From an uncultured Bacteroidia bacterium (GTDB lineage: Bacteria; Bacteroidota; Bacteroidia; Bacteroidales; UBA932): a stretch of DNA of 64,000 nt. The stretch is taken from NCBI GenBank assembly GCA_902782225.1, contig CACZMF010000001.1, positions 62,001-126,000 of the forward strand. Direction: 5' to 3'. The stretch's first letter is position 1. Every line of letters starts with the position of its first letter. Below, piece after piece: positions 6,420 through 10,688 of this stretch. The notes beneath the pieces were generated by a model. It made no database searches, had not been told where the DNA came from, and saw only the letters and a program-made list of their open reading frames with translations. The position numbers and the translations under genes were made by a program.

Positions 6420-6816
6420 GATGTATAAAATTTAAAATGTTAAATAATTAATTTCAAACACATTGAGGTCTCTTGAAACAAACGCATCCGGCCGTAAGGC
6501 AAAGCGCGGCGGGGGCCACACTCAGTTCGGCCAAGGCAAGGCGGTACGCCCACGGTTCGTTGTACTGTTTCAATCTATCCCTATATTGAACTCACAAATA
6601 TAACTTTTATTTATTGTGAATGCAAGAAGAATCGCCCCTTTTTCTTATAGAAAACTCAAAATAATTTTGAACTTTAAAAATTCGCAAAAACTCATTTACG
6701 ATTTTTTCGATTCCATTGCAGTCTGGGAAAATCGTTTCATCTTAGCGGCGGCATTGCCTAGTTGCAATGCCTGGCCTCTTCCACGGTGGAGGATGGCATA
6801 GGTTTAAACTTTTACT
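6420..6816. other. Divergent intergenic region between the surface operon and rpn
   Basis: About 400 bases without a convincing gene. It holds the minus-strand promoter at 6595-6626, a GC-richer stretch at about 6485-6565 that would be the untranslated leader of the surface operon, and a plus-strand -7 box TAATTTTG at 6662-6669 with T-rich sequence about 19 bases upstream, a candidate promoter for the first Rpn gene. A 61-codon frame at 6616-6801 has no recognisable features. Confidence 0.5.
6595..6626 (-). promoter_or_regulatory. Bacteroidetes-type promoter of the surface operon
   Basis: On the minus strand TATATTTG (6602-6595) matches the TAnnTTTG -7 box, with CTTG/TTGC 19-20 bases upstream (6626-6622) as the -33 element. 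It would give a leader of about 170 bases before the 48-residue gene. A second, weaker pair (TTTG at 6458-6455 and TAAATTTT at 6434-6427, 20 bases apart) lies almost against the start codon. Confidence 0.5.
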
Positions 6817-7755
6817 ATGATGTCACGAAACAATGTAATTGCCGGAAAGGGCCGATATGCCTATATCCTGACAGACGCCGCCTTTAAGGTCGTCGTATGC
6901 ACTCCAGAGAACGAAGATCTTCTCATCGAAATCCTCGAACTGCTGCTGCCGGGAAAGCACATCGCAAGCATCGATTTTGTAAATAAGGAGATGCACGGCC
7001 TTGTTATTGAAGAAAAAAGCAGTAACTTTGACCTGCTGTGCACGGAAAAGGACACCGGGGAGAAATTCCTGGTCGAGGTGCAGAACAGGCCGCACGACAG
7101 TTACCGGGACAGGATGCTCTACTACGCCACCTTCCCGCTTCGAGAGCAGATGACGGAGAAGATAAAGAAACTTAGGGAGGAGTTGGAGAAGCATCCGGAC
7201 GGCACCGGGACGACGAACAATGACAAGATGGACTACAGCCTGCGGCCGGTTTACGTCCTGAGCCTGGTGAACTTTGAACTTGAACACGAGAATGAGGACG
7301 CCCTTGAGCAGGAGTACATCAGCCGATACGGTGTCCGGAATGAGAAGAACGGGGAACGGTTCAACGGAACGCTGAACTTCGTGTTCTTGGAGATGGGGCG
7401 ACTGAAACTGGGACCGGACGACAAGGACAAGTGCCGAAACCTTCTGGAGAAGTTCATCTTCTCGATGAAGTATATGCACGAGATGGAGCAACGCCCGGAC
7501 GGCTTTGACGACCCGCTGCTGGTTCATCTGTACACGGCCACTGAATTGGCAACAATGACAGTAATACAACGACAAAACTACGACAAAGTTATGACTACAG
7601 AAATCGACAGGATGTGCGAAATCTCCTACGCCAAAAAGCAAGGTGTTGAGGAAGGGAAAGAGGAATCTGCTCGGGCTATGCTGGCGGATGGAATGAATAA
7701 ATCGCTGGTAGCCAAATACACTGGTCTAACGTTGGAGAAGATTGCCGCGCTGTAG
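6817..7755 (+). CDS. Rpn family nuclease / PDDEXK_2 transposase-like protein 1
   Basis: A 312-residue protein of the Rpn (recombination-promoting nuclease) / PD-(D/E)XK transposase-like family. The nuclease core is visible as SSNFDLLC (Asp72) followed by FLVEVQNRPHDSYRDR, giving the family's D...ExQ metal site (Glu87, Gln89), then RMLYYATFPLREQM and RPVYVLSLVNFEL, both characteristic. The C-terminal tail EGKEESARAMLADGMNKSLVAKYTGLTLEKIAAL is nearly the same as in the second Rpn gene. Members act as DNA nucleases and some Escherichia coli relatives restrict phage. Translation may start at either of two adjacent ATGs. An in-frame ATG at 7591 could give a separate tail protein. Confidence 0.85.
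   Translation: MMSRNNVIAGKGRYAYILTDAAFKVVVCTPENEDLLIEILELLLPGKHIASIDFVNKEMHGLVIEEKSSNFDLLCTEKDTGEKFLVEVQNRPHDSYRDRMLYYATFPLREQMTEKIKKLREELEKHPDGTGTTNNDKMDYSLRPVYVLSLVNFELEHENEDALEQEYISRYGVRNEKNGERFNGTLNFVFLEMGRLKLGPDDKDKCRNLLEKFIFSMKYMHEMEQRPDGFDDPLLVHLYTATELATMTVIQRQNYDKVMTTEIDRMCEISYAKKQGVEEGKEESARAMLADGMNKSLVAKYTGLTLEKIAAL
7591..7755 (+). CDS. Possible internal small protein (Rpn C-terminal tail, gene within gene)
   Basis: In-frame ATG at residue 259 of the first Rpn gene, preceded by an A-rich stretch (acaaagtt), starting MTTEIDRMCE and giving 54 residues. In E. coli Rpn loci, a small protein translated from an internal in-frame start and equal to the C-terminus blocks the full-length nuclease. 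The same position in the second Rpn gene also has an ATG followed by Thr-Thr codons, and that tail exists again as a separate frame downstream. Expression of the short form is inference. Confidence 0.35.
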   Translation: MTTEIDRMCEISYAKKQGVEEGKEESARAMLADGMNKSLVAKYTGLTLEKIAAL

Positions 7756-7891
7756 CAGGTCTGCAGTTAGGTGGTAGGACCTGGCACGTTTTGGGGCGAT
7801 TTCGTAGCAGGTCCCGACGCCGGATGATAGACCTGGCACGGTGCGGCCCCTCTCCCGTGCTCAAATCCGGCCTCCAGCGCCCCCGGGCCTG
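7741..7891 (+). repeat. Rpn-associated 151-bp hairpin repeat, copy 1
   Basis: The last codons of the first Rpn gene and about 135 bases after it recur at 9227-9376 with about 11 substitutions and one indel by my alignment. Within it are two tandem units 52 bases apart, each with CAGGTC and GACCTG separated by exactly 16 bases (7756-7761/7778-7783 and 7808-7813/7830-7835), so each can form a hairpin. The block is non-coding after the stop. It occupies most of the 325-base gap before the next gene; the remainder holds a promoter-like pair. Confidence 0.7.
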
Positions 7892-7909
7892 AATCCCCGC
7901 CACTTTTAC

Positions 7910-7940
7910 TTGCAGGATTCGGATTTTATTCCCATCTTTG
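7910..7940 (+). promoter_or_regulatory. Possible promoter of second Rpn gene
   Basis: TTGC (7910-7913) and CATCTTTG (7933-7940) are 19 bases apart, one base off the TAnnTTTG consensus. The leader would be about 135 bases and contains an AGGAGG-like stretch and a GCGAG/CTCGC inverted repeat near 7982-8017. Confidence 0.3.
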
Positions 7941-8080
7941 CACTACTACAAGTCTGTGTGCCGTAGTTCTAGGAGGCTACAAAGCGAGTTTGGCTATATC
8001 GTGCTGAGCTCGCTTTGTGCGTTTCATGGGGCTCCGGCGGCAGGTAGGACTAAGCTTAAATTGTTTAAAACTAAAGGATT

Positions 8081-9073
8081 ATGTTTAATTATCGACTCGA
8101 CGACCCTCTCAATGCACGAATGTATTTCGACGATGCCCCCGTAGGGGTGCTCAATTCTCCGCAGATCCACCGCCCCCGGCGCGGCACGATCGGCCGGTAT
8201 GTGAATATCCTGCTGGACGAATGGTTCAAGAAGATCCTCGGCGCGAGCAAGAACAAGGACATCCTTCTGAAGATCCTGCAGGAACTCATCCCCGAGCGTG
8301 AGATCGTGGACATTGAATACAACCGGAAGCCGGTCCGCAAGCGCAACGTGTTCAAGGGCTGCCACGACGCCTTCTTCGACGTGGAGTGCGTCGACGGCTA
8401 CGGGACTCGGTTCGTGGTGGAGATGCAGCGTGCGCACCAGGAGCACTTCCACGACCGTGCGCTGTTCTATTCAACCTTTCCGCTGCAGGAGCAGGTGCTG
8501 GCGCGGGGGAAGGACGCGGATAAGGAGCCTGAGTCGCACGACCTTCACTTCGACTACCCTCCGGTGTATGTGGTGAGTTTCCTGAACTTCTCGTTCCATC
8601 CTTTTTCGGAGCGGATAGTGTACCGGTACGACCTTCGTGAGCGGGAGAGCGGCGAGCTGATGACGGACCGTGTGAACTTCATCTTCCTGGAGATGACCAA
8701 CTACAAGCGGGGCTACAAGGAGCCCCATCCGGAAGACAGCTTCGCGGAAAAGCTCTCATGGGCCTTCACGCACATGTCGTCGCTGACGGAACGTCCCGTG
8801 GCGCTGATGGAGGAAGTCTTCGCGAAGATATTCGAGGCGTGCGAAGTGCGCGCGCTTGATGCTGAAGAACGTAAAGAATATAGAAAAGACATGACAACAC
8901 AGTGGGATATAGATGATATTGCCAATACCCGTTATTGGGAAGGGAAGGCGGAAGGGAAAGTGGAAGATGCCAGAGCGATGCTGGCGGATGGAATGAAGGA
9001 ATCGCTGGTAGCCAAATACACCGGTCTAACCTTGGAGAAGATCAGCGAATTACAATCGAGTAAGAATGTTTAA
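8081..9073 (+). CDS. Rpn family nuclease / PDDEXK_2 transposase-like protein 2
   Basis: A 330-residue paralogue of the preceding nuclease. The core reads HDAFFDVECVDGYGTRFVVEMQRAHQ, giving Asp100 and Glu114-x-Gln116, followed by DRALFYSTFPLQEQ and PPVYVVSFLNFSFHP. The N-terminal part (IGRYVNILLDEWFKKIL) differs strongly from that of the first copy, whereas the last 35 residues (ARAMLADGMKESLVAKYTGLTLEKI) are almost the same, down to codon level. This pattern suggests that tails are exchanged or conserved independently of the nuclease domain. An in-frame ATG at 8891 preceded by an A-rich tract could start a separate tail protein. Likely role: DNA cleavage in recombination or defence; the target is unknown. 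Confidence 0.85.
   Translation: MFNYRLDDPLNARMYFDDAPVGVLNSPQIHRPRRGTIGRYVNILLDEWFKKILGASKNKDILLKILQELIPEREIVDIEYNRKPVRKRNVFKGCHDAFFDVECVDGYGTRFVVEMQRAHQEHFHDRALFYSTFPLQEQVLARGKDADKEPESHDLHFDYPPVYVVSFLNFSFHPFSERIVYRYDLRERESGELMTDRVNFIFLEMTNYKRGYKEPHPEDSFAEKLSWAFTHMSSLTERPVALMEEVFAKIFEACEVRALDAEERKEYRKDMTTQWDIDDIANTRYWEGKAEGKVEDARAMLADGMKESLVAKYTGLTLEKISELQSSKNV
8891..9073 (+). CDS. Possible internal small protein of Rpn 2
   Basis: In-frame ATG at residue 271, starting MTTQWDIDDIANTRYWEG and running 60 residues to the Rpn stop. The bases before it (tagaaaagac) are A-rich, as favoured for translation starts in Bacteroidetes. The same first 21 residues open the separate frame at 9089, which supports this Met as a functional module boundary. 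That it is translated separately is inference by analogy with E. coli RpnS proteins. Confidence 0.4.
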   Translation: MTTQWDIDDIANTRYWEGKAEGKVEDARAMLADGMKESLVAKYTGLTLEKISELQSSKNV

Positions 9074-9082
9074 GATAAGAGA

Positions 9083-9241
9083 ATGCATATGACAACACAG
9101 TGGGATATAGATGATATTGCCAATACTCGTTACTGGGAGGGGAAAGCGGAAGATGCTCGGGCGATGCTGGCGGAAGGAATGCCCATAGAGCGTATCGCCA
9201 AATACACCGGCCTGACTCCGGAGGCGATTGCCGCGCTGTAG
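9083..9241 (+). CDS. Free-standing copy of Rpn C-terminal tail (52 aa)
   Basis: A short frame opening MHMTTQWDIDDIANTRYW and ending YTGLTPEAIAAL, directly after the second Rpn gene (9-base gap). From the second Met it matches the internal tail of Rpn 2, with a seven-codon gap and divergence toward the end (EGMPIERIAKYTGL). No nuclease residues are present. It is either a degenerate leftover of a third Rpn gene or a small independent protein that could act on the nucleases. It is followed by the second copy of the hairpin repeat, just as the first Rpn gene is. Confidence 0.5.
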   Translation: MHMTTQWDIDDIANTRYWEGKAEDARAMLAEGMPIERIAKYTGLTPEAIAAL

Positions 9242-9376
9242 CAGGTCTGCAGTTCTGTGGTAGGAGCTGGCACGTTTTGAGGCGATTTCGTAGCAGGCCC
9301 TGCCGTCGGATGGCAGACCTGGCACGGTGTGGCCCCTCTCCCGTGCCAAATCCGGCCTCCAGCGCCCCCGGGCCTG
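9227..9376 (+). repeat. Rpn-associated hairpin repeat, copy 2
   Basis: About 92% identical to 7741-7891 by my alignment, again placed over the stop codon of an Rpn tail. The two hairpins are weaker here: GACCTG has become GAGCTG in the first and CAGGTC has become CAGGCC in the second. The rest of the 211-base gap before the serpin gene holds TATCTTCG at 9399-9406, a near-consensus -7 box. Confidence 0.7.
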
Positions 9377-9452
9377 GCGGGCATTTCCATTTTTTTAGTA
9401 TCTTCGCACCGTACACGCAAGATTCGGCTGGAATCTGCATTTTATTATTGTC

Positions 9453-10688
9453 ATGAGAATCCTTCACATAGCGGCGGCCGCACTTCTGCTTGCAGGCACT
9501 TCCTGCCAGGGCATCATCAATGATATCGATGCCAGGTTGAATCCGTATAAGCCCCTCGAACTCTCCACCAAATCCGCGGAGTTCGTGGACAAGAGCGATG
9601 ATTTCACTTTCGCATTCCTCGACCGCATCAACGCCGGGGCAAAGGAAGACTACATCATTTCTCCTCTCAGCATGCAGTTCCTGCTCGGGATGCTGCTGGA
9701 CGGCGCCCGGGGCGACACAGCCGCCGAAATCGCCAAGGTGCTCGGCTACGGGGCCGGCGAGGTGGACGCAGTCAACGAGTACTGCCTGTCGATGCTCAAG
9801 CAGCTGCCCGAGCTGGACAAGAAGACCAAGCTCTCAATTGCGAACGCCATCTTCGTGGATGACGGCTGGCCGCTTCTGGACAGCTACACAAGCATGGTCG
9901 GAAAGTACTACCGGGCGGAGGTCGCCAATCTGGACTTCAGCGACTCCAAAGGCTCGCTGAAGAAGATCAACGGCTGGAGCAACAAACAGACCAACGGGCT
10001 GGTGCCCAAGGTGTTGGACAGCGTCGACCCGGATATGCTCGCCTACCTCCTGAATGCCCTGTATTTCAAGAGCCAGTGGAAGGAAAAGTTCCCCAAAGGG
10101 TCCACCGCACCGGAAACTTTCACCTACGAAAACGGCAGCACCGGAAAGGCCACGATGATGAAAATAGACAAGGACTTCAGTTACGACGAGAACGACATCT
10201 ACAAAATCGTCCGCCTCCCATATGGCAACGGCGCTTTCTCCATGGTGGCCCTGCTGCCCCAGCCCGGGCACAGCGTGGCCGAAGTCACGAAAGCCCTTCG
10301 CAAGAAGGACTGGAAAGAGATTCTCCGCTCCATGGTGAGCTGCAAAGTGGACCTGTGGCTGCCGAAGTTCGAGACCAAGTACCATATCAACCTGAATGAG
10401 ATTCTTTCGGCGATGGGAATGCCGAGCGCGTTCGACGAGGAGAAGGCGGATTTCAAGGCCATGTCGCAGTTCGCCCTCTGCCTGAGTTTCGTGCAGCAGG
10501 ATGCGGTGATCAAGGTCGATGAGGAAGGCACCGAGGCCGCTGCCGTGTCCGTGGGAGGAATGATGAAAGATGCCGCAGTCGAACCGGGCCAGCGTGTTGT
10601 TTTCCACGCAGACCGCCCGTTCATCTACCTGATTACGGAAAGCAGCACCGGTGCCGTGCTGTTTGCCGGGCGCTACGGAAGCAAGTGA
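9453..10688 (+). CDS. Serpin family lipoprotein (protease inhibitor)
   Basis: A 411-residue serpin with a lipoprotein signal (MRILHIAAAALLLAGTSC). Serpin landmarks are in order: DDFTFAFLDRI, IISPLSMQFLLGMLLDGARGDTA, NALYFKSQWKEKF, the hinge IKVDEEGTEAAAVS, and the closing block VVFHADRPFIYLI...GAVLFAGRYG. The hinge keeps the E-E-G-T-E-A-A-A pattern expected of an inhibitory serpin, with the reactive loop lying in about SVGGMMKDAAVEPG. Attached to the cell surface or periplasm it would trap host, diet or competitor serine or cysteine proteases; the target cannot be read from the loop. Bacterial serpins are scattered and often thought to be acquired. The next gene starts 10 bases on, so the two may be co-transcribed. 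Confidence 0.9.
   Translation: MRILHIAAAALLLAGTSCQGIINDIDARLNPYKPLELSTKSAEFVDKSDDFTFAFLDRINAGAKEDYIISPLSMQFLLGMLLDGARGDTAAEIAKVLGYGAGEVDAVNEYCLSMLKQLPELDKKTKLSIANAIFVDDGWPLLDSYTSMVGKYYRAEVANLDFSDSKGSLKKINGWSNKQTNGLVPKVLDSVDPDMLAYLLNALYFKSQWKEKFPKGSTAPETFTYENGSTGKATMMKIDKDFSYDENDIYKIVRLPYGNGAFSMVALLPQPGHSVAEVTKALRKKDWKEILRSMVSCKVDLWLPKFETKYHINLNEILSAMGMPSAFDEEKADFKAMSQFALCLSFVQQDAVIKVDEEGTEAAAVSVGGMMKDAAVEPGQRVVFHADRPFIYLITESSTGAVLFAGRYGSK

Follow-up and report, generated by a model that had tools for sequence, protein, structure and literature searches.

The window, i.e., the whole stretch of 64,000 nucleotides that was analysed, carries on its forward strand two Rpn genes of the PD-(D/E)XK nuclease family followed by a short free-standing gene that resembles their C-terminal tails. 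Rpn gene 1 (6817..7755, 312 aa) and Rpn gene 2 (8081..9073, 330 aa) match PF12784 (E 1.1e-36 and 5e-38) and TIGR01784 (60.2 and 60.4 bits, cut-off 52.1), which places both in the Rpn nuclease domain family as they had originally been read. Their active-site positions are intact, as the D, E and Q columns, which we take to be the catalytic positions, are invariant in 134/134 genes of the genus including those of the window, and D100, E114 and Q116 of gene 2 are invariant in set A2. Both genes contain an in-frame ATG followed by two threonine codons exactly where the original prediction had placed it, at 7591 (ATG ACT ACA, a conserved junction methionine) and at 8891 (ATG ACA ACA), and the predicted RpnS-type small proteins starting there would comprise 54 aa (7591..7755) and 60 aa (8891..9073), which are the lengths foreseen. 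The MTTQWDIDDIANTRYW module is indeed found again by itself after gene 2, as a 50-aa open reading frame at 9089-9241, and a second in-frame ATG at 9083 would give 52 aa for this free-standing tail gene (9083..9241); the gap to the stop codon of gene 2 is 15 nt. Using the free tail as query in a protein search of its own genome, the tail of gene 2 was found at E 2.3e-19, excluding chance similarity of free and embedded tails, and the tail of gene 1 at E 4.2e-8.

The free tail matches positions 240-271 of the 273 positions of TIGR01784 (E 9.5e-5, 22.3 bits), a score below the whole-protein cut-off of 52.1 as expected for a fragment. A tail profile that includes the gene 1 tail matches the crystallised small form of E. 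coli RpnA (7th0_A; PDB 7TH0) at E 8.2e-9 over residues 8-46 of 49, and the tails differ in length in steps of four residues, as found in RpnS-homologous tails with variable four-residue repeats. This match was the second row of the search; the first, 8vd6_A annotated as 'CAP REPEAT' (E 5.3e-13), is taken for a composition match. Unlike the free tail of the window, the RpnA small form is an internal form and not a gene of its own. DUF4351 genes were named as separate RpnS genes in some species (PMC10327210), whereas the free tail of the window shows no Pfam match to DUF4351 (PF14261) at E up to 0.1. The resolvase helix-turn-helix HTH_7 (PF02796) reached 20.2 bits, below its gathering cut-off of 23.8, and the PADLOC defence models gave a sole match, PDC-M01B to gene 1 at E 0.01. 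A conserved RNA element was considered and dropped, as positions 6500-9500 gave no Rfam match at gathering thresholds.

It was shown that internal small Rpn proteins act as antitoxins in E. coli, and the statement that they neutralize the full-length nuclease, on which the original prediction drew, is found in the same study, in which experiments showed the small form for genes of E. coli and for one gene of C. difficile (PMC10327210). In the window, the stretches upstream of the two internal ATGs (7566..7590 and 8866..8890) contain 13/25 and 15/25 A (0.52 and 0.60), whereas the 470 positions evaluated in the two genes have a median A fraction of 0.24 and reach 0.48 at the 99th percentile, in agreement with the A-rich context that had been noticed there. 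The 45-base start regions are predicted to be weakly structured or unstructured, with folding energies of -1.0 (7591) and 0.0 kcal/mol (8891) compared to a median of -8.75. Moreover, the synonymous-A score at 7591 lies at the 99.6th percentile within gene 1, and that at 8891 exceeds all other tested positions of gene 2. For the free tail, the corresponding values are 0.48/0.44 for the upstream A fraction and -0.2/-0.4 for the folding energy (starts 9083/9089). An internal start giving a C-terminal small protein is hence present as a sequence signature.

This signature is shared by relatives. Of 149 genes from the genus and from named relatives, 113 have the junction methionine in precisely this column and 141 have it within -1..+3, compared to 14% of 5-residue windows. 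Computed per 60% cluster (49 clusters), the excess of A-ending synonymous codons amounts to +0.24 (95% 0.165-0.312) in codons -8..-3 and to +0.23 (0.172-0.286) in codons +1..+6, compared to -0.04 and -0.06 around 824 other internal methionines. A at the codon third position -13 reaches 0.61 versus 0.14, which falls inside the A motif at -14..-11 described for Flavobacterium start sites (PMC6847099). Among the four published start determinants, A is raised at -6 and -13 around the internal Rpn starts and is not raised at -3 (0.22 vs. 0.28) or -12 (0.04 vs. 0.29). In order-level relatives a methionine is found at the junction column in 0/29 and near it in 1/29 genes. Furthermore, eight genes without a nearby methionine still show an upstream A excess of +0.26 (0.06-0.44, 7 clusters) and no downstream excess (-0.07), and the excess is likewise upstream only in 28 genes with a shifted methionine; the upstream excess is therefore not confined to methionine-bearing genes. 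The comparison with relatives thus strongly supports the internal starts, and both ATGs (7591 and 8891) appear to be true initiation sites.

The DNA surrounding the free tail points to its origin. The 140-nt stretch comprising its last codon, stop and 3' flank (9238..9376) is 91.4% identical to that after gene 1 (7752..7891), and the similarity from 9136 on amounts to 83% over 211 nt. The first 20 residues are identical to the gene 2 tail with four synonymous differences, and the DNA identity to this tail falls from 93% in the shared start segment to 68% in the C-terminal parts. The flank similar to that of gene 1 shows that the free tail arose by recombination, in which an rpn 3' end was either exchanged or duplicated. 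Relatives' DNA that would polarize this duplication was sought in 287 other loci, none of which matched at E up to 1e-3, while the positive control of the search worked. The free tail might be mere debris of this process, a non-functional 3' fragment left by unequal recombination, which we consider unlikely. Besides the flank, this is suggested by the numerous rpn remnants of the genus that have lost internal parts or their frame and by the absence of a free tail behind all 16 named-relative genes having at least 300 nt downstream, which shows that this copy is not conserved. However, the frame of the free tail is intact, its start is A-rich and unstructured, its start segment has no nonsynonymous change, and free tails are repeatedly placed directly behind an rpn stop and show purifying selection as a class.

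The survey of Rpn loci for solitary tails, which the original prediction had proposed, revealed that rpn is immediately followed by a free tail at seven additional loci of Bacteroidales (L109, L110, L126, L134, L146, L221 and L253), in E. coli and in one Leptospira phage record; in L134, the rpn stop and the free-tail start overlap as ATGA. Many other short tails of the genus result from the end of a contig or are clearly decaying, and tails with short frames were dropped when they lay at a contig end or contained internal deletions or frameshifts. Two of the eight downstream matches in the genus set were left out (L132, a split gene; L216, a partial tail without start segment), as were L244 and L246 among three matches in 29 order-level genes; L126 was retained although about a dozen residues are missing from the end of its embedded tail and the start of its free tail is shifted outwards by one residue.

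The original prediction did not know a separate tail gene to be described, but such genes are not new: Zhong et al. (2023, PMC10327210) reported free-standing RpnS genes, namely ypaA downstream of rpnE and another copy of rpnCS behind rpnC, and the K-12 locus likewise carries one. The free tail of the window, directly downstream of a gene to whose tail it is related, is the E. coli rpnE-ypaA arrangement in another phylum. In both, a full-length Rpn with an internal small form is followed by a free tail (12 nt downstream in E. coli), the start segments are identical and the numbers of four-residue repeats are unequal. They differ in that the E. coli start context is AAGGAGA whereas the starts of the window are A-rich, in that the free product (RpnES, encoded by ypaA) was detected with a tag in E. 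coli (PMC10327210) while the free tail of the window is known from its sequence, and in that the E. coli rpn genes are transposase_31 (PF04754; PMC5350276), whereas those of the window are PF12784. The Leptospira phage record KF114876, from yet another phylum, encodes a 316-aa Rpn followed after 9 nt by a 58-aa free tail, which equals the embedded tail minus two repeats and with one residue changed; in the related phage KF114877, the annotation places no free tail in the 306-nt gap behind the tail-bearing gene.

Solitary tails carried by phages as counter-defence were considered and rejected, as 50,697 phage records contained no significant match to the free tail of the window (best E 0.5). 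When the gene 2 tail was searched as DNA, only short chance matches appeared, and the four viral-contig loci L310-L313 show no Rpn domain, only weak helix-turn-helix-like matches. The E. coli ypaA protein found nine phage-collection records at E up to 1, and the Leptospira phage free tail found two Leptospira records. PHROG family 5416 matches the tail; since it gives E 5e-24 on the free and embedded tails of the Leptospira phage alike, it was not counted as independent. Among 72,556 plasmid records, 1,059 match the gene 2 tail at E up to 1 (best 5e-3), and the best 20 of these 1,059 are mostly annotated Rpn of Klebsiella and relatives.

Selection was assessed for free tails as a class. For the start segments of seven pooled Bacteroidales pairs, with L253 excluded from the count, pN/pS is 0.12 (p 3e-11), and p is 7e-6 even assuming that only the free copy is neutral. 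The window pair alone is weak (four synonymous, no nonsynonymous changes, p 0.009; whole tail p 0.05). In E. coli, sampled as 28 of 5,426 genomes, the free gene shows 17 synonymous and five nonsynonymous segregating changes in 14 haplotypes (pN/pS 0.09, p 2e-7). Because the Bacteroidales start segments diverge mostly synonymously and pN/pS is 0.09 in E. coli, free tails are probably kept as proteins, and random decay of solitary tails, which would have spoken against the original prediction, is disfavoured. The synonymous bias might, however, date from a time before the nuclease half was lost. Only the test in E. coli is free of this problem, and its outcome could be confused by gene conversion.

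The free tail might serve as an extra antitoxin for its neighbour, binding the gene 2 nuclease and raising the small-to-large ratio in trans. Its start segment is protein-identical to the gene 2 tail, it lies directly downstream so that the same mRNA is possible, free RpnES is made in E. coli and separately supplied RpnS acts in trans there (PMC10327210). However, the free tail is four residues, i.e., one repeat, shorter than either embedded tail, and the C-terminal parts diverge as described above. Embedded and free tails are unequal in length in 22/23 pairs, the window included, always by multiples of four residues; equal lengths occur in 0/14 distinct E. coli and 1/8 Bacteroidales pairs. 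In E. coli, the RpnC small form no longer inhibited once a single repeat had been added to it (PMC10327210), and by this published rule, which stems from a single E. coli protein, the free tail should not neutralize its neighbour well. These two points somewhat disfavour a trans-acting version of the same control, and such a cognate role appears unlikely to us, even with the weak correlation of free and embedded lengths in the 14 distinct E. coli pairs (r 0.43, one-sided permutation p 0.056). Active avoidance of equal repeat numbers is unsupported: 0/14 compares to 0.86 expected (p 0.38), 1/23 gives p 0.41, and unrelated tails are equal in length in 6.5-8.5%. As independent drift gives the same mismatch, it reflects an absence of exact tracking and not avoidance.

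A further possibility, which appears quite improbable, is that the free tail acts only as a recombination cassette, an untranslated or rarely translated spare 3' end that replaces the embedded tail via the shared start segment. All three E. coli strains read without a free gene (3/3) carry the free-type C-terminus on rpnE, as tail exchange predicts, the N-terminal domain was noted to be fused to the rpnS region (PMC10327210), and in the window pair the DNA identity falls after the shared segment. Yet a mere donor needs no selection at the protein level, which the E. coli free gene shows, and the ypaA product was detected. This possibility overlaps with our preferred explanation, in which tail donation is one of two roles.

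We prefer, at about even confidence, an explanation by dual-start Rpn nucleases accompanied by a third, out-of-register tail kept by selection. Each rpn gene would carry a second start at the junction of nuclease domain and tail, and each mRNA would give the full-length nuclease and a small RpnS-type tail restraining it. The third tail behind gene 2 would be left over from rpn 3' ends that were exchanged or partly duplicated, as in E. coli rpnE-ypaA. We infer that this tail is probably translated from the gene 2 mRNA and kept by selection as a protein, and that, being out of register with both neighbours by one four-residue repeat, it most likely caps the gene 2 nuclease inefficiently. We think that it instead pairs with other Rpn variants, or ancestral ones, and donates its sequence in tail exchange. 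In a broader and more doubtful version, free Rpn tails would form a convergent class of out-of-register spares that arose repeatedly in Bacteroidota, Pseudomonadota and Spirochaetota, selected as proteins to disarm ancestral, sibling or incoming Rpn variants, not the adjacent nuclease, and to donate tails; if this holds true, tail switching would change the specificity of the nuclease.

As a summary, free-standing tail genes had been described before in E. coli (Zhong et al., 2023, PMC10327210), and the analysis extends the gene-within-gene arrangement of Rpn to many nucleases of Bacteroidales, with a signature of the internal start that is readable from the sequence alone. RefSeq labels free tails as pseudogene (K-12) or incomplete (22/25 E. 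coli copies read). Such tails become a testable question, as their protein sequence is conserved although their repeat number is not that of the neighbour which they would be expected to inhibit.

Gene 1 (6817–7755, forward strand) and gene 2 (8081–9073, forward strand) both exceeded the curated cut-offs of the Rpn family models PF12784 and TIGR01784, which bears out their original prediction as Rpn nuclease genes. The short ORF behind gene 2, the free tail (9083/9089–9241, forward strand), matched positions 240–271 of 273 of TIGR01784 (E 9.5e-5); as a fragment it was expected to stay under the cut-off for whole proteins, and did. A profile built from 14 tails found the crystallised RpnA small form 7th0_A (E 8.2e-9); its best row was 8vd6_A 'CAP REPEAT' (E 5.3e-13), which we take for a putative composition match. 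Three nuclease-domain columns (D, E and Q), presumably the catalytic residues, were invariant in 134/134 full-length genus genes. The closest named loci belong to Bacteroidales assemblies, most of them from ruminant gut, and this is the basis for calling the window Bacteroidales here.

The in-frame internal ATGs at 7591 (gene 1) and 8891 (gene 2) had been proposed as starts of a small C-terminal form (RpnS in E. coli), and comparative evidence supports both as candidate starts. Of 179 different full-length genes collected, 178 were scorable; genus searches contributed 132, the order 29 and named relatives, a group overlapping with the genus, 18. At the junction column, 113/149 genes of the genus and the named relatives had Met, and in 141/149 a Met lay at −1 to +3 of the junction, vs 14% of other five-residue windows; among order-level relatives the junction column was Met in 0/29. 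A-ending synonymous codons were compared with the same gene's own usage, which removes protein constraint. Near the junction Met their mean excess over 49 clusters of 60% identity was 0.24 at codons of about −8 to −3 and 0.23 at +1 to +6, compared with about −0.02 in the stretches flanking this signal and −0.04 and −0.06 near 824 other internal Mets. Within their own genes the two window sites scored at the 100th (gene 2) and 99.6th (gene 1) percentile, and the 113 genes had a mean percentile of 0.90, with 69% above 0.9. In Flavobacterium, whose phylum is described as being without Shine-Dalgarno sequences, ribosome profiling showed A to be over-represented at −14 to −11 of start sites, and positive determinants were A at −3, −6, −12 and −13 plus low structure, according to the available part of PMC6847099. 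At the junction Met, A was raised at −6 and at −13, where it falls on the third base of a codon (0.61 vs 0.14), and was not raised at −3 or −12. Genes whose Met is shifted (28) had the A excess upstream and not downstream, and the 8 genes without a nearby Met likewise had only the upstream excess (+0.26, 7 clusters), which suggests that the putative start site is marked by a Met together with A excess on both sides of it.

Free tails recur behind rpn genes, as a survey of Bacteroidales loci, E. coli and a Leptospira phage record revealed. In the genus, 126 of 132 full-length genes had at least 300 nt downstream (128 of 134 in the near-identical set). A tail match followed 8 of these 126, with 6 clean pairs (window, L109, L110, L126, L146, L221), and L134, a locus beginning at a contig edge, is a further pair; since the 40 stretches L109–L148 were picked for short tail frames and not at random, these counts are not a frequency estimate. 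The order set yielded one clean pair (L253, 1/29) and the named relatives none behind 16 genes. The rpn stop and free-tail start overlap as ATGA in L134 and ATGCTGA in L221. In E. coli K-12, ypaA begins 12 nt past rpnE; it shares 19 identical residues with the rpnE tail and has one repeat more. The rpnE-ypaA pair was present in 25/28 strains chosen from match lists for variety, not randomly, all 25 with the 12-nt gap and an open frame. In the Leptospira phage record an Rpn of 316 aa is followed after 9 nt by a free tail of 58 aa that is short of two repeats. Many plain rpn remnants are also present in the genus, and a short tail is therefore no proof by itself. In four remnants (L119, L142, L145, L147) nuclease-domain parts run straight into the tail through internal deletions. 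Genus contigs often end inside rpn, at or just before the tail (L112, L115, L117, L121, L123, L124, L128–L131, L133, L135, L136, L138, L140), as if near-identical copies had broken the assemblies. Two order-level loci (L244 2336–2609, L246 2336–2615) carry a similar ORF of ~90 aa downstream of rpn; the later part of this ORF resembles the region where tails start, and its first ATG and the rpn stop overlap as TAATG. In L258, an order-level Rpn frame of 424 aa, a 12-residue KGREVGIKEGMH-type repeat occurs ~6 times in the tail.

The predicted solitary module at 9089–9241 was recovered: over its first 20 codons it is protein-identical to the gene 2 tail, with 93% DNA identity and 4 synonymous and 0 nonsynonymous differences. 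Thereafter this identity falls to 68%, and from 9136 on the free tail resembles the 3' end and flank of gene 1 (83% over 211 nt; stop and flank 91% over 140 nt); the C-terminal part of gene 2 is 88% identical to gene 1 over 93 nt. These mosaic identities show that rpn 3' ends have been exchanged between neighbouring genes. The flank found behind the complete gene 1 sits behind the free tail and is missing from the end of gene 2; we infer that the gene 2 end is the newcomer and the free tail the older of the two, and the relatives' DNA gave no polarisation of the exchange. Part of this flank, about 40–95 nt (GCAGGTCTGC...GGTAGGACCTGGCACG; window 7755–7860 and 9241–9346, L012–L016), is a dispersed repeat, which in the same genome also occurs with no rpn or tail match nearby (C5:295680; C7:45314–45410, both orientations; C15:21803) and, ~100 nt past the remnant of a tail, at one further place (C11:47405).

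Across seven Bacteroidales pairs, the start segments differed at 29.5 of 85.3 synonymous and 13.5 of 334.7 nonsynonymous sites (pN/pS 0.12, p 3e-11; p 7e-6 on the assumption that the free copy has drifted neutrally since its origin). L126 and L134 account for 11.5 of the 13.5 nonsynonymous changes, and the window, L146, L110 and L109 contribute none. This bias could date from before the loss of the nuclease half. The E. coli test escapes this objection by comparing free copies that are orthologous. The free gene segregates for 17 synonymous and 5 nonsynonymous changes among 14 haplotypes (pN/pS 0.09, p 2e-7), similar to the embedded tail with 13 and 5 among 15 haplotypes (pN/pS 0.11), indicating that the E. 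coli free tail is under purifying selection. RefSeq labels the K-12 copy a pseudogene and, among the other 24, 22 incomplete and 2 intact, whereas the free tail is open from its ATG in 25/25 pairs (L282–L289, L292–L297, L299–L309).

RpnS specifically blocks the full-length RpnL, and for the RpnC small form one added repeat abolished the block, which was restored with the repeat on both partners, as reported in the available part of Zhong et al. (2023; PMC10327210). In the alignments the free tail differs from the embedded tail by −4 residues in the window, −4 in L146, +4 in L110, −8 in L109, −4 in L126, +12 in L221, 0 in L134 and +24 in L253, gap placement being uncertain in diverged Bacteroidales pairs; the difference is −8 in Leptospira, and 0/14 distinct E. 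coli pairs were equal. Overall, 1/23 pairs had equal lengths, as in unrelated tails (6.5–8.5%), so the free tail is not an exact match to its neighbour. The two lengths may be loosely coupled (r 0.43, p 0.056 for the 14 E. coli pairs). If the repeat rule is general, this absence of exact matching would make most free tails poor cognate antitoxins of their neighbour. Each of the three E. coli strains examined that lack ypaA carries a ypaA-type C-terminus on rpnE, which fits a remark in PMC10327210 about the N-terminal domain being fused to the rpnS region.

The original prediction treated a free-standing tail gene as possibly undescribed, which does not hold: the available text of PMC10327210 covers RpnS both as an internal product and as a free-standing gene, repeats that vary in Bacteroides fragilis and elsewhere, and a suspected origin of downstream copies by recombination. 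No other publication on RpnS genes was recognised by title among the matches listed, most subscription journals lying outside the coverage. The Bacteroidales start-site signature, the selection on free tails and the repeat-tracking test were not found in that portion of PMC10327210.
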